From the IMG/VR virus record IMGVR_UViG_3300025112_000208, positions 1 through 22,943 of that record: 22,943 bases of DNA; one strand, given 5' to 3'. The DNA is from a virus. Positions 7,805 to 20,281 of the stretch are shown here, piece by piece (within the stretch, counting starts at the first letter, position 1; the number at the start of each line of letters is the position of its first letter). A program made the translations under genes and the position numbers. The notes beneath the pieces are model-generated. The model had not been told where the DNA came from, did no database searches, and saw only the letters and a list, made by a program, of their open reading frames with translations.

Positions 7805-7993
7805 GTGAGTGAATACCCAAACAGGTTGGAAAGTGTCGATATAGAGCGACACATGGAAGCAAAGAATAGGATAGTCTGTATATCCTGTTCGGAGTCAGTC
7901 CCCGAGGACGGCAACTGGCATTTTATAGTTTCGGAGACATGGTGCCACCAATGCGTTATTGACGCTGATTTGATAGGTCACACTTATGGATAA
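7805..7993 (+). CDS. Mini zinc-finger protein, first rightward gene
   Basis: 62 residues with two CxxC knuckles, CISC (about 25-28) and CHQC (about 47-50), separated by about 18 residues: a one-domain zinc ribbon or treble-clef layout. Leaderless GTG start directed by the TATA at 7777. Its last eight bases overlap the GIY-YIG gene, so the two are coupled. Small proteins of this sort in archaeal viruses are often DNA-binding regulators or adaptors, but the target is unknown. Confidence 0.7.
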   Translation: MSEYPNRLESVDIERHMEAKNRIVCISCSESVPEDGNWHFIVSETWCHQCVIDADLIGHTYG

Positions 7994-8318
7994 ATTTTAC
8001 ATCTATAAGTTAGCCCGTCAGGCAGAAAAGACAAACTACAATTTTGTAGACATCCAGATGGATAAAGCCCCCGATAAGGGGGCCATATACTATGGCTTAA
8101 CACAGAATCCACAAAAGCGATTAAGCCAACACAGACCAATAAAGGGTCATGATGTCAGCATGTGCATAATAGCAGAGTTTGACTCTGTGTGGTTTGCTTT
8201 AGAGCATGAAGCCAAAATAATAGCAGACCATGTCAGGACCTATGGAAAGGCCCCTGAAATGCAAGGAAAAGCCAATTCTGGAGTAAAGGCCACCCCTAAG
8301 GGGGGTGGTCAGCAATGA
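7986..8318 (+). CDS. GIY-YIG domain protein, copy 1
   Basis: 110 residues forming one GIY-YIG fold. KFYIYKL supplies the first motif, IYYGLTQNPQKRLSQH the second with the catalytic Arg, and ALEHEAKIIADH the Glu-containing helix. A C-terminal APEMQGKANSG segment supplies a conserved Asn. There is no extra DNA-binding domain, so it resembles a stand-alone cleavage module rather than a classic homing enzyme. A paralogue lies at 9359-9730; both keep KRLSQH and the APxxQGxANSG tail. Possible roles are cutting host or competitor DNA or resolving branched DNA. It overlaps both neighbours. Confidence 0.85.
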   Translation: MDKFYIYKLARQAEKTNYNFVDIQMDKAPDKGAIYYGLTQNPQKRLSQHRPIKGHDVSMCIIAEFDSVWFALEHEAKIIADHVRTYGKAPEMQGKANSGVKATPKGGGQQ

Positions 8319-9358: not shown

Positions 9359-9730
9359 ATGCCTAAAATGAGTGAAACAACCGAAGCCAAATTCTATATC
9401 TATGCTTTAGTGTCAACTTCAGAAAAAGCACGTGGTGAAAATTCACTACGAGTGGACATGGGAACATTTGAAGGACTCGGTAAAAATATAGAATATATAG
9501 GAATCTCGAGACAAAACCCAACTAAGAGATTGAGCCAACATCAATCTAAGCCATTGTTTGAAAAAGCTATTGGAAAGAAAGTTAAAAATCTGGGAATGTT
9601 CATAATAGATTCTGGAATAAAATCCGAATGGCACGCACTTCGAGACGAAGCGAAACTCGTGTCTGATTACTTCGACCAATTTGGCGAAGCACCAAGACTG
9701 CAAGGAGCAGCAAACTCGGGAAAATACTAA
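9359..9730 (+). CDS. GIY-YIG domain protein, copy 2
   Basis: 123 residues, paralogous to the protein at 7986. KFYIYAL gives the first motif, IEYIGISRQNPTKRLSQH the second with the catalytic Arg, and ALRDEAKLVSDYF the acidic helix. The tail APRLQGAANSG matches copy 1. It is longer by an N-terminal extension and an insert of about a dozen residues (FEKAIGKKVKNLG). It is leaderless, whereas copy 1 is internal to an operon. As with copy 1, a conserved micropeptide gene follows some distance downstream. Confidence 0.85.
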   Translation: MPKMSETTEAKFYIYALVSTSEKARGENSLRVDMGTFEGLGKNIEYIGISRQNPTKRLSQHQSKPLFEKAIGKKVKNLGMFIIDSGIKSEWHALRDEAKLVSDYFDQFGEAPRLQGAANSGKY

Positions 9731-12163: not shown

Positions 12164-12820
12164 ATGTTAATGCATAAGTTTGATAGTCTGAAAGAAGCAG
12201 AAAATACAATAGGGGGTTTAAGTTCCCCCTCTAAAATGCCGTCTTATGGATGGAGTATTTCAGCCCGTCGGTGTGATGTAGGGAGTAAATTAGCTAAAAA
12301 AGAGGGAACCGTTTGTTATAACTGTTATGCTCTTAAAGGCCGTTATATGTTTCCCATGACCCAGAACGCTTTAGAAAGGCGCTTTAACGCTTGGAGTGGT
12401 GACCGTGAAAAATTTGTAGACGCTATGATTTTTATAATGCATAATAAAAAGCACATTGTAGATACTGGCGTTTTCCGTTGGTTTGATAGTGGTGACCTTC
12501 AAGGTATAAAAATGTTAGAGGATATTAATAATATAGCTTGGGCAAGTCCCCACGTTAAATTTTGGTTGCCTACAAAAGAATATACTTTAATAAAGGACCA
12601 CTCTTTAGATATAGCACCTAATCTAATTATTAGAGTTAGCAACCCTAATAAAAATAAGAGCTTTAAAGATAGCTTCGATTATGTTAGCGCTGTATTTGAT
12701 AAAGACAGACTCCCTAAAGATTCCCATAAATGCCCATCTTCTAAACAGGGTAATAAGTGCGGAAGCTGTCGGGCTTGCTGGTCGGATAAAATTAACGAGG
12801 TTGTTTATTTAGCCCATTAG
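12164..12820 (+). CDS. Gp88-like Cys-rich phage protein
   Basis: 218 residues resembling the phage Gp88 family (recognised from memory). Features are LSSPSKMPSYGWSISARRCDVG, then VCYNCYALKGRYMF at about 50-63, FRWFDSGDLQG at about 104-114, and FWLPTKEY at about 132-139. The C-terminus has CPSSKQGNKCGSCRACW, the family's Cys cluster. These proteins are widespread in tailed phages; the function is not established, and the Cys pattern suggests a metal or Fe-S site. The start may be the ATG at 12164 (leaderless) or 12170. A single-gene transcript is likely, with promoters on both sides. Confidence 0.8.
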   Translation: MLMHKFDSLKEAENTIGGLSSPSKMPSYGWSISARRCDVGSKLAKKEGTVCYNCYALKGRYMFPMTQNALERRFNAWSGDREKFVDAMIFIMHNKKHIVDTGVFRWFDSGDLQGIKMLEDINNIAWASPHVKFWLPTKEYTLIKDHSLDIAPNLIIRVSNPNKNKSFKDSFDYVSAVFDKDRLPKDSHKCPSSKQGNKCGSCRACWSDKINEVVYLAH

Positions 12821-15101: not shown

Positions 15102-15329
15102 ATATCTGTCTTCACTATATTATAAGCTCTATTAAGAGCCCTATTAAGCAAAGCTTTATAAACCAAGCTCTACTAAGAGAGCTATACTAAGATAACTAAG
15201 CACTATTACTTACAGCAATATATAGCTTAACTGAGCCATGCTATAATATAGTTAATATAGTGCCCGATTTCTCAGCCCAAGCACAGGCACCACCGAAAAG
15301 CTTATAAAGGCACTCCCTTCTCTAAGGGC
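15102..15329 (+). repeat. AT-rich region with degenerate short repeats
   Basis: From 15124 to about 15210 a unit close to AAGCTCTAYTAAG recurs with variations, for example at 15124, 15165 and 15179, and with weaker copies between. GCTCT-ATTA-AGAGC is itself an inverted repeat. AAGCTCTACTAAG also occurs inverted at 7550 in the divergent promoter region. No gene is present. Candidate iteron or operator array just before the large rightward operon. Confidence 0.5.
15288..15309 (+). promoter_or_regulatory. Promoter of the MoxR-VWA operon
   Basis: CACCACCGAAAAGCTTATAAAGG combines the recurring CACCGAAA BRE-like block with a TATA box (CTTATAAAG, 15301-15309) 29 bases before the ATG at 15330. The message should be leaderless. 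Confidence 0.65.
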
Positions 15330-15557
15330 ATGCACAAAACCGATGCAATGACGACTGATGTGATAGCTCAAATGCTGTCTCAGTTGAACAGTAAGCAACT
15401 ACAAAAGTTGCTCAGCTCAACCCCGAACCGTAAAGGGTCGGAGATACGTGGAAAGAGAAATGCCCGAACTGAGGTATATTTCCAAAGAGTAAAGGACGAG
15501 GGATTATACCCTCACAATTATCCTACCTTCCCTCAGTTCAGAGAGGTATTGCTGTGA
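15330..15557 (+). CDS. Hypothetical protein, first gene of the MoxR-VWA operon
   Basis: 75 residues. The N-terminal half is a Gln/Leu-rich helical segment (MLSQLNSKQLQKLLSS), the middle is basic (NRKGSEIRGKRNARTEVYFQRVKDEG), and the end is aromatic. Not recognised. Leaderless ATG; the stop overlaps a GTG that may start the next gene. Confidence 0.65.
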   Translation: MHKTDAMTTDVIAQMLSQLNSKQLQKLLSSTPNRKGSEIRGKRNARTEVYFQRVKDEGLYPHNYPTFPQFREVLL

Positions 15558-15559
15558 GA

Positions 15560-15685
15560 ATGACATTAGCTGAATGGTGCCTTATGACTTGTGAATGTCC
15601 TGAGCCTAAACTGGCTGAGGACATAAACGATGTGTGCGAGGATTGTGGCTATTATTTGCCTCAGTCCAGCGAGGTAGCAGGATGA
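15560..15685 (+). CDS. Mini Cys-motif protein
   Basis: 41 residues from the ATG at 15560; a GTG at 15554 in the same frame overlaps the previous stop and is an equally possible start. It has CLMTCEC and CEDCGYY, which together give a four-Cys zinc site. Stop overlaps the next ATG (ATGATTAA). Likely a small adaptor in the same operon; function unknown. Confidence 0.6.
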   Translation: MTLAEWCLMTCECPEPKLAEDINDVCEDCGYYLPQSSEVAG

Positions 15686-16035
15686 TTAAACACGACGCAG
15701 TAAAGAAGTTCAATTCTTACATGACTCAGCACACGGACAGGTTGCCCCTGCTCAGTGTTGAGACGATTGAAGATAAACGCTTTATTGGCCTGAGAAGAAC
15801 ATTGGAAGGTGTCTACGGAGACATTGAGAACAATGCGTGGTCTGTGAGCCAGCACTTAGCTCGGCTCGTTGATGACCTCAGCTCAATGGAGCTTGATGAT
15901 AAGAAAAGGTTGACAGGTATACTGAGTAAATACCAAGTGAAAGGTGAAGTAAGACCTGTTAGTGGAACTAAGACCTATGGCTACGACTTCAGCCGAGTTG
16001 ATGGTAGTATGTATAAGAGAAGGAGGTCGAACTGA
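15682..16035 (+). CDS. Hypothetical protein upstream of the MoxR ATPase
   Basis: 117 residues from the ATG at 15682; upstream in-frame codons belong to the previous gene. Mainly helical: IKHDAVKKFNSYMTQHTDRL, then a long helix (ENNAWSVSQHLARLVDDLSSMELDDKKRLTGILSKY) and a basic, Tyr-rich tail ending KRRRSN. Not recognised. The stop shares a base with the MoxR ATG, so the two are tightly coupled and the proteins may interact. Confidence 0.7.
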   Translation: MIKHDAVKKFNSYMTQHTDRLPLLSVETIEDKRFIGLRRTLEGVYGDIENNAWSVSQHLARLVDDLSSMELDDKKRLTGILSKYQVKGEVRPVSGTKTYGYDFSRVDGSMYKRRRSN

Positions 16036-17324
16036 TGGGTAAAAGAGATGATAGACCTTCCCCGACTGAATCCGCAACTAAGTTCATCGTAGGGTCAACT
16101 AAGATAGGTGGAGACGGACATAGGTGGATAGTAAGGGATTATCCAAAATCAGGGACTCGGAGATGGGTCAGATACTACCCGTATATGGAATCCGAACTGA
16201 AAGGAATTGCCCACGATGGTGAGGGACTCTACGATGATGGATATACCACCGTAGTTGAACACCTCAGGACGAGAGCTGACCCAAGTTACGACACAGGGAA
16301 AGATGTCTCAGTTGAGGACACCGATACATTTATAAAGGAGCATGCAGATGCAGATACGATGACTACAACCGACGTAGAACATGAGGGCTTAGGCGCACTT
16401 TTTGGTGATGCCGAAAGCCCCGAGCCAGTTGAGGAACCTACCCCCGAAGAAGTGGTAGAAATAGAGAAAGAAACAGTGATGTCTAAGCTGAGAGGCTCAG
16501 TCAATGTGCCTGAGGAGTTTAAGTTCGCAGACCACCTCACGTTCTTCACCATGCTAAGAAATATATTTCGTGGTAAGAACATACTGGTCACCGGACCCTC
16601 AGGATGTGGTAAGTCAAGTCTCGGTAAGATATTATCTGATATAACCGGAAAGAGTTACTATTCTTTTAACTTTGGTGATACTATGAATCCCTCAGCTAAG
16701 CTGTTGGGTGATACTAAGTATAACAAGGAAGAGGGAACATGGTTCAAACCTTCTCGGTTCGTTAAAGCCATCCAACAGGATTCATTTATCATGCTGGATG
16801 AGGTGACAAGGGACCGAACAGGTGACTTAGCTAATATTCTGATGCCTGTCCTTGATGGACAGAAGTATCTCGCTTTAGATGAGTCTGAGGATGCTGACTC
16901 AGTTACCGTTAGCCCCCAAGCCTTCTTCTATGCTACTGCCAACATAGGTAGAGAGTATCTCGGAGCAAGTCACGACTTGGACCGAGCTTGGAAGGACAGA
17001 TTCACAGGTGGGATATATGAATTGGACTACCTTCCTCCAGACAAAGAGAAGGAATTGTTGAAGATACGAAGTCCTCAGTTGATGGACGACACCGCAGATA
17101 AGATAGTTGACTTTGCGAAGAGGGTTCGTGACCTATACAAGTCGGATGAGCTGGCTACGGCTGTCTCAACCCGTATGTGCTTGGCTGTGGCCGACCTCGT
17201 TGTAGACGGAATGAGCCTGATTGATGCATTGAAGCATACCTGTCTCCCTTTCTACCCTGTTCAGGGTGGAGATGACACTGAGAGGGTAAGGATTGTGCAA
17301 GTCATTCAGTCTATGGGGGATTAA
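16035..17324 (+). CDS. MoxR/CobS-like AAA+ ATPase
   Basis: 429 residues. An N-terminal segment (FIVGSTKIGGDGHRWIVRDYP and RRWVRYYPY) looks like a small beta module, followed by an acidic linker up to about 150. The AAA+ core has Walker A GPSGCGKSS at about 187-195, Walker B FIMLDEVTRD at about 252-261, sensor 1 FFYATANIG at about 297-305, and DLDRAWKDRF with candidate arginine finger. The AAA_5/MoxR grouping is based on this motif style and on the neighbouring VWA protein. MoxR and CobS ATPases remodel protein partners or insert metal cofactors with a VWA protein as clamp. One-base overlaps on both sides show coupled expression. Confidence 0.9.
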   Translation: MGKRDDRPSPTESATKFIVGSTKIGGDGHRWIVRDYPKSGTRRWVRYYPYMESELKGIAHDGEGLYDDGYTTVVEHLRTRADPSYDTGKDVSVEDTDTFIKEHADADTMTTTDVEHEGLGALFGDAESPEPVEEPTPEEVVEIEKETVMSKLRGSVNVPEEFKFADHLTFFTMLRNIFRGKNILVTGPSGCGKSSLGKILSDITGKSYYSFNFGDTMNPSAKLLGDTKYNKEEGTWFKPSRFVKAIQQDSFIMLDEVTRDRTGDLANILMPVLDGQKYLALDESEDADSVTVSPQAFFYATANIGREYLGASHDLDRAWKDRFTGGIYELDYLPPDKEKELLKIRSPQLMDDTADKIVDFAKRVRDLYKSDELATAVSTRMCLAVADLVVDGMSLIDALKHTCLPFYPVQGGDDTERVRIVQVIQSMGD

Positions 17325-17527
17325 TGCCTAAGTTCGTAATAGAGCTGGACATGGAAGAATATGACATACTCCGAGACTACTATAATGAGTTCAAATATGA
17401 TTCCGACCTTGCTTCGATTGAAGGGAGCATAGTTCATGGCATCGTATCTCAGCTCTTTGCATCATTTGAAATGGAGCCTGAACTATACCATGATACTACC
17501 CACTTCACGGGAACTGAGGAGGATTAA
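17324..17527 (+). CDS. Small acidic protein between ATPase and VWA genes
   Basis: 67 residues, strongly acidic (LDMEEYDILRDYYNEFKYDSD and MEPELYHDTT...GTEED) with a hydrophobic core helix (IVHGIVSQLFASF). Shares one base with the ATPase stop. Not recognised. Composition and linkage suggest a small subunit or regulator of the ATPase complex. Confidence 0.65.
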   Translation: MPKFVIELDMEEYDILRDYYNEFKYDSDLASIEGSIVHGIVSQLFASFEMEPELYHDTTHFTGTEED

Positions 17528-17528
17528 G

Positions 17529-17933
17529 ATGGTTAGAAAGAAAGTATTACGAAGAAAGCATTGTTACTGGCATCAGGTTGCTAAGTCCATGCTTGAGCTT
17601 GGACTGAAGCCAACCATTGTTGGACACATAATCAGAGATGTCTTTCCTGAGACCGAGATAAATGGTCGCCATATTGGTGCGTTCAAGCGTAGATTGATAA
17701 AGGATGGTGAACTGAAGATTCCCGATAAGGTAACCATGAAAAGAAATGAAGCATCTCAGTTAGCGAAAGGACTTGTCTCAACTGAAGATTTATTCATATA
17801 CAAATGTATGGTAGGCTCAACTAAGAGGACTCTCAAGTGTTTTGAGTTCAAATTCAAAGGCGAAGAGAAGGATGTATTGATGGAGGTAGACAAATGGTTA
17901 TTGAACATGGACCACACAGAACTGAAAGCATAG
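17529..17933 (+). CDS. Basic protein with helix-turn-helix-like region
   Basis: 134 residues from the ATG at 17529, just after the previous stop; a longer frame from 17436 would lie inside the upstream gene. The N-terminus is very basic (VRKKVLRRKHCYWHQVAKSMLELG). The segment LGLKPTIVGHIIRDVFPETEINGRHIGAFKRRLIKDGEL resembles a helix-turn-helix or winged-helix unit. The C-terminus is a mixed domain ending in a helix. DNA binding is an inference. It overlaps the VWA gene by 40 bases. Confidence 0.65.
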   Translation: MVRKKVLRRKHCYWHQVAKSMLELGLKPTIVGHIIRDVFPETEINGRHIGAFKRRLIKDGELKIPDKVTMKRNEASQLAKGLVSTEDLFIYKCMVGSTKRTLKCFEFKFKGEEKDVLMEVDKWLLNMDHTELKA

Positions 17934-20068
17934 ACGATTGGGCTGAGGAGGAGGATGACCCATACTGCTACGGGTGTGATGCATGGACTACGGTTGATGA
18001 CCACGATAACTGTGCAACGTGTGGTCTCTCAATTAAGACCATAGACCCTTATACTTCACCCATTACTGCCAAAGTTTACAGTTCCTCAGCCCCTAAGGTC
18101 TCATCTCATGGTGACATGTGGGGCAGAGGTAGAAGTAGTGGCTACACTTGGGGTAGTGGTGGAGGCTGGTGGCAAGGAAACTCAAGCTCTTCTTACACCT
18201 CTCAGTGGGGTGGTGGGTGGTCTTCATCCAATACAGACCGAGACGCACGTTTGCTGAAACATAAGAGGCATCTGGATTCTCTTTGTAAGGTTGTGTCACC
18301 AACTGTAAAACACACACTAAGCTATTCTACTGGTAAAAAGAACTATTCCAATATGGAAAGAGGGAGTATCTTTGTTGATGGCTCCTTACTCTATGATAAT
18401 GATGATAAGCTGGATGTGGTGGCAGGTCTCTCAATTCACGAGAAGCTACACTTAGTTCATACTGCGCCATTATTGGCTTGGGAAAAGAAATATGGTTATG
18501 ATAATGACCTGTCCATGACTAAGAAAAAACTATTACATAACATTGGTAATATCATCGAAGATGAGTTCATCGAGTCTCAGTTAGCTAAGACCCACGCTGG
18601 TTTCGTTAGCTACATAGAAAAGGTGAAACGTCATTATTTTGAGAAGCATGGCAAGAAGATTGAGGACTGTGATGATGCCTTCGCTGACGTAGTAAACACA
18701 TTACTGGCCTTAGTTCGTTATCCTGAGGTGATTGATGCAGAGCGTAGAAAGAAACACGCTAAGCACCTTCAATACTTTGCACGAGCCCTGAAGACGGCAA
18801 CTGAGAGTAGGGAAGAGTCCCTTAAAGCAGTTCAATCCTGTTATGAGTATCTCGTTCAGCTTGCTGAAGAGATGGCCGAAGCGAGCAAAGATGGTGACGA
18901 AGAAAGTATCATGAAACGAGCTGAGGATAAGATGGCTGACGTAATGAAAGCGTGGGCTAAGGCTGGAATGGAAGATAAGCTCAGCCCAGAGGAAAAGGAA
19001 GATATGCTCGAAAAGATGATAGAAGATGAGAGGGCGACGGATGAGAGGCATGGTCGCACAGGAGCAGAGCGTATTATAGAAGATGCTGACCCTAAGCTGG
19101 CGAAGAAGCTGGTAGCCTACGAAGAAGATTTAAAGAGCATCAGTGATGAACTCGCTAAGAGGATTGCCGACTTAGAGGATAGTGACTATTCTGAGGAAAC
19201 TTATGGTAAGGACAAGGCTCTCGGCCTGAAAACAGGACTGAAAGTAACTTGGCGTAACCAGAAATCGTCGGGTGAAGAACGCTTTGGTCGAAGTAAGATT
19301 GCAGTATATGATGATGGTGTGGCTGAAATGAAGTCAGCTATATCTGGACTGAGGCGTAAGATAGACCTCTACGGTGATACTAAGATGTATACTATTCGTA
19401 ACCAAAAGAGAGGAAGGCTTGATAAAAAGATGCTACATAAGATACCTCTCGGTAGAGATGACCTCTTTAAGAACATAGTCGTTGATGAGGATAAACCTCT
19501 GGATGTATGTCTCTTAATTGATGAATCGGGTAGTATGGGAAGTCATAAGATGAAGCATGCCCGTGAATGTGCTATTGCTCTACGTGAAGCACTAAAGGAC
19601 AATCCTGCTCTCAGCTTATGGGTCTTTGGGCACACGGCTGATGGTTATTCATGGGATGATAAGGGTGCTACTAACATGTCCGTCTACTGGTCTCCTCAGT
19701 ATCAAACTGATTTGAAGGCGATGGGTGGACTTCAAGCAAGGTCCGAGAACAGGGATGGCATGGCTATCCTCAGTTCAGCCGAGCGTGTTAGGAATGAATC
19801 CGACTCACCATCAAGCAACAAGCTGATGATAGTTATCTCAGATGGAGAGCCGTCTGCGGCTAAGTATAGAGGACACACCGCTATACAGCACACCCGTAAG
19901 GTAGTGAAGCACATTGAGTCTCAGGGCTGGAGTGTGATTCAGGTGGGTATAAGTGGAGCGAGAGAGCATACAATGAAGGATATGTTTAAGAACTGGCTTT
20001 ACATTGACGATTCATCTCAGCTCGCCAACAAGGTGAGCCGAATCATCAGGAAGGTGATAAAGGTATGA
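17894..20068 (+). CDS. Zinc ribbon - HExxH - VWA protein, MoxR partner (CobT/DUF2201-like)
   Basis: 724 residues. An N-terminal zinc ribbon (Cys25, Cys28, Cys40, Cys43) is followed by a Gly/Ser/Trp-rich linker to about 110. A metallopeptidase-like domain follows with HEKLHLVH at about 182-189, an exact HExxH, and NIIEDEFIESQLAK further on. A long charged helical region with Glu/Lys-rich coils occupies about 290-480. The C-terminal VWA domain has the MIDAS DESGSMG at about 542-548 and VISDGEPSA later. The metallopeptidase-like/VWA pairing next to a MoxR ATPase is a known bacterial arrangement; here it is viral with an added zinc ribbon. Whether the HExxH cleaves protein is unknown. The complex could remodel or dismantle a host or viral target. 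Confidence 0.88.
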   Translation: MVIEHGPHRTESIDDWAEEEDDPYCYGCDAWTTVDDHDNCATCGLSIKTIDPYTSPITAKVYSSSAPKVSSHGDMWGRGRSSGYTWGSGGGWWQGNSSSSYTSQWGGGWSSSNTDRDARLLKHKRHLDSLCKVVSPTVKHTLSYSTGKKNYSNMERGSIFVDGSLLYDNDDKLDVVAGLSIHEKLHLVHTAPLLAWEKKYGYDNDLSMTKKKLLHNIGNIIEDEFIESQLAKTHAGFVSYIEKVKRHYFEKHGKKIEDCDDAFADVVNTLLALVRYPEVIDAERRKKHAKHLQYFARALKTATESREESLKAVQSCYEYLVQLAEEMAEASKDGDEESIMKRAEDKMADVMKAWAKAGMEDKLSPEEKEDMLEKMIEDERATDERHGRTGAERIIEDADPKLAKKLVAYEEDLKSISDELAKRIADLEDSDYSEETYGKDKALGLKTGLKVTWRNQKSSGEERFGRSKIAVYDDGVAEMKSAISGLRRKIDLYGDTKMYTIRNQKRGRLDKKMLHKIPLGRDDLFKNIVVDEDKPLDVCLLIDESGSMGSHKMKHARECAIALREALKDNPALSLWVFGHTADGYSWDDKGATNMSVYWSPQYQTDLKAMGGLQARSENRDGMAILSSAERVRNESDSPSSNKLMIVISDGEPSAAKYRGHTAIQHTRKVVKHIESQGWSVIQVGISGAREHTMKDMFKNWLYIDDSSQLANKVSRIIRKVIKV

Positions 20069-20187
20069 ACAATTACGAAAAGATATTCGAGATGTTAATT
20101 GAGGCCATCATAGAAGATGCTATGAACGGAGGCGTTCAGATAGACATGGATGAAGTAGAGAAAGCAGAAGCTATGTATGAACCTTAA
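20065..20187 (+). CDS. 40-residue acidic protein
   Basis: Starts in the VWA stop (ATGA overlap) and is too small for most gene finders. Strongly acidic amphipathic helix: IFEMLIEAIIEDAMNGG and MDEVEKAEAMYEP. Linkage and composition suggest a small accessory factor of the ATPase-VWA operon. Not recognised. Confidence 0.6.
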   Translation: MNNYEKIFEMLIEAIIEDAMNGGVQIDMDEVEKAEAMYEP

Positions 20188-20281
20188 AGCCCCTCCTCAT
20201 CTCGAGGAAGCTGGTTGGTATCTACTCGTAGCTTTCTTCATAATAATTTGGATGTGGATATTTATATTCGCATCCCCTTAG
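20177..20281 (+). CDS. 34-residue membrane peptide
   Basis: Overlaps the end of the acidic gene by 11 bases. It begins MNLKAPPHLEEAGW and then has one membrane helix (YLLVAFFIIIWMWIFIF). The position at the end of the MoxR-VWA operon suggests a membrane link for that complex, although translation is not proved. Confidence 0.55.
   Translation: MNLKAPPHLEEAGWYLLVAFFIIIWMWIFIFASP

Follow-up and report, generated by a model that had tools for sequence, protein, structure and literature searches.

A virus-borne MoxR-VWA operon with a conserved candidate zincin site and a constant small partner gene

Pairs of a MoxR-type AAA+ ATPase and a VWA-domain protein are already known from viruses, both as the 'CobS/CobT' proteins of tailed viruses (PMC8651126) and as the MoxR, vWA and metallopeptidase combination of jumbo phages (PMC7824862), and viral cobS and cobT have been described as auxiliary metabolic genes serving vitamin B12. 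In the NorQ-NorD complex a finger of NorD sits inside the pore of NorQ, and the proposed NorQD mechanism has the finger in the pore, the partner twisted and the target contacted via the metal ion-dependent adhesion site (MIDAS) or a linker (PMC13036017). Here we describe an operon of this kind on the virus record IMGVR_UViG_3300025112_000208, whose 22,943 nucleotides (nt) form the whole stretch analysed (the window). Nine open reading frames (ORFs; g1 to g9, 15330-20281, plus strand), linked by overlaps or a 1-nt gap, carry a MoxR ATPase (g4), a VWA partner (g7) and seven small genes. The operon is a confirmed, distinct variant among viral MoxR-VWA pairs. We tentatively read it, at a little under even chances, as a remodelling machine of the NorQD type, acting on DNA-associated proteins to unfold or cut them.

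The ATPase, its VWA partner and the candidate zincin site

Judged from its sequence, g4 (16035..17324, +; 429 aa) is a MoxR AAA+ ATPase of the CbbQ/NorQ type, with matches to Pfam AAA_5 (7e-14) and CbbQ_C (7e-9) and to PHROG_249 (3e-23); against solved structures in the PDB it scored 1e-12 with NorQ, compared with only 8e-4 for CobS. Walker A (G187-S195), Walker B (L254-E256), sensor 1 (A300-N303), the arginines R317/R322 and sensor 2 (S378-R380) were all recognised, and the catalytic motifs are kept across 20 homologues. A VWA gene accompanies MoxR in all relatives whose contigs extend to it, with a broken frame in L097, where only a 389-aa C-terminal ORF appears to follow g6 (L097:7186-9635). 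The bpMoxR/VMAP ternary conflict system was also considered for g4 and set aside, the bpMoxR domain reaching 12.6 bits where its cut-off is 27.

The partner g7 (17894..20068, +; 724 aa) consists of a zinc ribbon, a candidate zincin (HExxH) domain, a helical linker, a finger and a MIDAS VWA of the CobT/NorD type, and the Pfam matches, motif conservation and structural matches bear out the initial annotation, which had paired a MoxR ATPase with a 724-residue zinc ribbon/HExxH/VWA protein. The CxxC...CxxC zinc ribbon (C25-C43; 17966..18022, +) is retained by 20 of the 21 close homologues, while D543, S545 and S547 of the MIDAS DxSxS (D543-S547; 19520..19534, +) are invariant in all 21; N619, D621 and D650 are further invariant residues of the VWA. 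This half of the protein is related to CobT by profile comparison (1e-18), and Pfam CobT_C (PF11775) lies above its cut-off. The structure of g7, predicted from an alignment from which phage-record rows were left out (mean pLDDT, the predicted local distance difference test, 80), matches NorD of the NorQ-NorD complex through residues 433-723 (Z 22.8 over 253 residues, NorD 347-638) and the Rea1 MIDAS with Z 23.4. The match to NorD extends past the VWA core into the region before it, where the finger is expected, and the finger region also aligns in sequence with CobT. The putative pore-inserting finger, IRNQKRGRLDKKMLHKIP...FKN, covers approximately residues 497-531 (19382..19486, +), its exact bounds being inferred. 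The model thereby places g7 among the NorD/CobT/Rea1-type MoxR partners, with a MIDAS VWA and a predicted pore-inserting finger.

By analogy, the ATPase-VWA step is best modelled on the NorQD mechanism. We infer a complex in which the g4 ring would grip the finger protruding from the g7 VWA, as NorQ grips NorD, so that ATP turnover would twist g7 while its MIDAS site holds the target. As the zincin site is retained, the N-terminal zincin domain would then be likely to cut the strained target. The zinc ribbon and g6, a small protein with a helix-turn-helix (HTH)-like fold, may bring the machine to DNA. These two features together with the DNA-linked gene context described below suggest DNA-bound targets, the likeliest being host or viral proteins encountered in viral replication or recombination.

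The case for cutting turns on the HExxH of g7 (H182-H186; 18437..18451, +), in which H182, E183 and H186 are invariant in the 21 close homologues. About 36 residues further on lies N219-x-x-E222-D223 (18548..18562, +), invariant in the same set and probably providing the third metal ligand; in the model the HExxH lies within helix 173-189, and helix 208-233 carries E222. With an HExxH followed by a downstream acidic ligand, g7 has a gluzincin-like signature in sequence, and the HExxH and DxSxS motifs that the initial annotation had singled out are both upheld by their conservation. Searches with the CobT N-terminal domain (PF06213) gave no match to g7, and an HExxH-bearing Roseobacter phage CobT matched it at 2e-15. 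The combination of HExxH and N-x-x-E-D recurs in Bacteroides phages, in the CobT of Roseobacter phage CRP-810, in halovirus HCTV-2 and in 6/6 plasmid proteins examined, one of which has another residue for the N.

The site is lost in one large phage clade (L008-L069), where QNAAL-like residues take the place of HExxH and the acidic side resembles LNTERID, the two halves of the metal site being altered together and the flanking residues mostly kept. In the tree, nine members of this clade group (100/100) and are nested among HExxH-bearing proteins, and at least two changes of HExxH state are forced overall. Because the motif recurs in distant proteins, is lost in a paired manner and is distributed in the tree in this way, we conclude that HExxH is a metal site under constraint across most of the family and was secondarily lost in part of it. 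It is apparently lost in cellular CobT as well, whose aligned segment is GLGDSMALRQARHN against GYVDHEAGHVRHS in phage CobT in a weak pairwise alignment; this loss is read from that one segment, the plasmid searches having returned plasmid VWA relatives and no plain cellular CobT. Since the HExxH-plus-glutamate signature is strictly kept, and both sides disappear together where it is lost, proteolysis by g7 is plausible. The main interest of this variant is the argument it offers that the zincin is intact in many viral 'CobT' proteins.

These observations bear on the published hypothesis for archaeal tailed viruses (PMC8651126), under which the pair would act as CobST with a host CobN and boost cobalamin for a viral class II ribonucleotide reductase. 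The homology of the g7 VWA half to CobT fits this role, and a class II (B12-dependent) reductase domain in 14/16 related records tested (e.g. G007, G003, G016) keeps it alive. However, CobN was found in 0/16 records (the window and 15 others), several of which are fragments, and a host might supply it. Moreover, g4 is nearer NorQ/CbbQ than CobS, the zincin site is intact in g7 and absent from the readable part of cellular CobT, and the same kind of pair occurs on plasmids amid recombination genes. We regard a cobaltochelatase helper as very improbable.

Small partner genes and operon layout

The gene g6 (17529..17933, +; 134 aa, basic, isoelectric point (pI) 9.7) was found in 24/24 related contigs extending past MoxR, an independent scan finding no others, and it lies directly 3' of MoxR and 5' of the VWA gene wherever both flanks are present, with 35-66% identity among homologues. 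In its AlphaFold2 model (pLDDT 76) three N-terminal helices form a predicted HTH-like domain and match HTH DNA-binding domains with a best Z of 5.6. Comparison of g6 with PDB sequences gave no convincing match (best E 0.043), and GenBank phages gave matches at E about 3 only. The basic, possibly DNA-binding protein of the initial annotation is thus present with a predicted HTH-like fold, the HTH match itself being weak; its start had been placed at 17436, and the homologues move it to 17529. As a constant small partner of the archaeal family, g6 offers a handle on recruitment.

Three other small genes are widespread by homologue searches. The first gene, g1 (15330..15557, +; 75 aa, basic, pI 9.9), is kept in one subclade and present in 15 aligned loci including the window, the homologues in the other 14 being 32-69% identical. 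A conserved C-terminal TYGYDxSRxD...RRxRxN marks g3 (15682..16035, +; 117 aa, basic), which occurs in 23 aligned loci (window included), always 5' of MoxR, and whose homologues place its start at 15682 instead of the 15634 first assigned. The last gene, g9 (20177..20281, +), encodes a 34-aa single-span membrane peptide with a grand average of hydropathy of 1.07; it has homologues in 12 related loci with up to 73% identity, directly after the VWA gene in about half. The acidic products of g2, g5 and g8 are sporadic: g5 (17324..17527, +; 67 aa) has homologues in L086 and L095 only, g8 (20065..20187, +; 40 aa) gave doubtful matches only, and for the Cys-rich mini-protein g2 (15554..15685, +; 43 aa) no sequence homologue was found, a positional Cys-rich analogue being present in L001 (5955-6068). 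At least three small genes therefore recur in related operons, and the earlier picture of a complete effector machine including proteolysis keeps its plausible proteolytic part but reads too much into the small genes, since three are sporadic.

Small partners that differ between loci around a constant core could also be adaptors, together with g6, of a machine that unfolds or degrades a host protein, for example one of chromatin or defence, and pairs on both plasmids and viruses would fit a shared need against the host. We consider such host takeover or anti-defence doubtful: no link to a host target or defence gene was found, the occurrence of g6 is constant and not variable, and the context indicates DNA metabolism. 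The host takeover raised in the initial annotation is possible, and its alternative of defence against competing elements found no specific support.

Upstream of g1 lies the archaeal-type promoter element CGAAAAGCTTATAAAG (15294..15309, +), composed of a B recognition element (BRE) and a TATA box and centred 26 nt 5' of the first ATG (15330). It is the sole copy in the window, and the same box stands 26-28 nt ahead of an in-frame start in 7 other related loci. A BRE/TATA box at such spacing is expected for an archaeal promoter with a leaderless transcript. The sequence pattern supports an archaeal-type promoter and a leaderless reading of the operon, in keeping with the overlapping or abutting genes and leaderless layout first described, the count of eight genes giving way to nine ORFs. 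The nonsynonymous rate dN is well below the synonymous rate dS in the operon genes wherever dS could be estimated, dS being saturated for several pairs; conservation and dN/dS rule out chance ORFs. The pentamer CTCAG recurs 5' of the operon promoter in several loci, and CTCAG/CTGAG has 91 copies in the whole window against 35 expected by base composition (66 by a Markov estimate).

Genomic context, virus and host

We surveyed the neighbourhoods of 17 diverse HExxH-type viral pairs, 114 ORFs in all, by PHROG family. The commonest families were Holliday-junction resolvase (7), Cas4-type exonuclease (6) and UvsX/RecA (5), and no capsid, portal or tail family was among the top 25 neighbour families listed. 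Six related Bacteroidetes-phage-like records share the order RecA, resolvase, MoxR, VWA and Cas4-like nuclease, and in several relatives, including those records where it was found, the large terminase subunit TerL lies tens of kb from the pair. Plasmid pairs adjoin SSB, RecT, lambda exonuclease and toprim genes, or helicases and DNA methylases. In the window a RecU/Hjc gene lies 1.5 kb downstream of the operon on the same strand. The link of HExxH-type pairs to DNA recombination genes is suggestive. In six plasmids (L155-L160) chosen from 1,758 matching records, an AAA ATPase is joined by an HExxH-keeping VWA protein, and 4/6 carry a DUF3150 gene directly before the VWA gene, which is the position of g6; a search of the literature library on DUF3150 gave nothing.

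This context also bears on the main rival, in which MoxR-VWA would help heads or tails to assemble, as a chaperone that also takes part in proteolytic processing. Such a role was proposed for the jumbo-phage MoxR-vWA with an N-terminal metallopeptidase (PMC7824862), the p618/p892 pair of Acidianus two-tailed virus (ATV) is cited there as needed for tail assembly, and the ATV VWA protein is among the fold matches of g7, as a weak match. However, the operon lies on the strand opposite to the head genes, its relatives sit with replication and recombination genes far from TerL, and HExxH-type pairs occur on plasmids, which have no virions as far as annotated. On balance we find virion assembly unlikely, and the head maturation put forward in the initial annotation is not favoured.

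Several points weigh against a DNA-directed remodelling machine. Gene context is not equal to function, and the neighbour survey was made with neither a random-position control nor a background set. The RecA, resolvase and Cas4 context comes mainly from the six related Bacteroidetes-phage-like records and the plasmids, the recombination link looking looser in the window's own family. With a Z of 5.6, the HTH match of g6 falls short of showing homology. In the structure search with the whole of g7, VWA proteins filled the match list, so that residues 115-300 drew no independent confirmation of a zincin fold and the lack of zincin chains among the matches carries no weight. Besides, the literature yielded no experiment on any HExxH-type pair.

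Probably a fragment of a viral genome, the window encodes terminase, portal and head proteins on the minus strand of its first 7.5 kb; beyond these, mainly small genes occupy the plus strand. TerL is 65-84% identical to that of the window in 23/26 records with the MoxR-VWA pair. A 67-kb relative encodes a B-family polymerase, a class II ribonucleotide reductase, a squalene/phytoene synthase and a pyrimidine-dimer glycosylase, and also a homologue of the window's RecU-like resolvase. The host is likely archaeal because a BRE/TATA box with a leaderless layout is the expected archaeal arrangement, the promoter being the one line of evidence that bears on it. Two scans of GTDB genomes, one using the MoxR profile and the other the viral squalene/phytoene synthase, found no provirus or host relative, and Rfam and tRNA scans of the window found none.

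Among other genes, a 417-aa protein (684-1937, -) between the portal and a cement-like protein might, by eye, be a prohead protease that includes a coiled-coil scaffold part; its scaffold match is only weak (PHROG 2932, 0.014). Two GIY-YIG endonuclease-like genes (7986-8318 and 9359-9730, +) and a GP88 family protein (12164-12820, +; Pfam PF17338, 4e-25) were also seen. Elsewhere, the squalene/phytoene synthases of L152 (6448-7053) and L001 (12171-12776) are 99% identical, the operon proteins of both viruses appearing more diverged, and their near identity may reflect a recent exchange. Record G016 (81.2 kb) has a TerL match at each end, and its ends look redundant.

Relation to known systems

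Should the HExxH-bearing class prove to be a remodelling machine of protease type, many viral cobS/cobT annotations would be wrong, and a widespread machine of mobile elements would have a target open to testing through mutants of residues H182, E183, E222 and D543. A wider proposal, which we put forward as speculation and think unlikely, is that most viral and mobile-element 'CobS/CobT' pairs keeping HExxH are AAA+-driven zinc proteases acting on DNA-bound proteins and not cobalamin genes, that the protease was lost in two groups descended from them, cellular CobT and the large phage clade, and that the archaeal form adds g6 as a dedicated DNA-binding subunit.

Among viral systems, ATV p618/p892 (cited in PMC7824862 and PMC7911831) is likewise a MoxR-VWA pair of an archaeal virus, but of an unrelated virus type, with a weak fold match only and, according to PMC7824862, no peptidase domain. 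The group 2.2 jumbo phages (PMC7824862) likewise combine MoxR with a VWA fused to an N-terminal metallopeptidase, a likeness drawn from the published description; in contrast, the window virus is archaeal-type and its operon has extra small genes. NorQ-NorD (PMC13036017) shares with the window a CbbQ/NorQ-type MoxR and a VWA with a finger, as the structural match to NorD reflects, whereas NorD functions in inserting iron into nitric oxide reductase. The plasmid MoxR/DUF3150/VWA clusters with SSB, RecT, exonuclease and toprim genes (e.g. pMAQU02) resemble the window in HExxH, N-x-x-E-D, MIDAS and a neighbouring AAA ATPase, and differ in their bacterial hosts and in the DUF3150 gene between ATPase and VWA in 4/6. 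The 'CobS/CobT' proteins of Druskaviridae, Saparoviridae and cyanophages (PMC8651126) likewise place a MoxR/CobS-like ATPase adjacent to or near a CobT-type VWA protein, and that of halovirus HCTV-2 shares both halves of the candidate metal site with g7. Unlike these, the window has a constant HTH-like gene between the pair, an N-terminal zinc ribbon and an ATPase nearer NorQ/CbbQ, and the evidence gathered here weighs against the cobaltochelatase role assigned to them.

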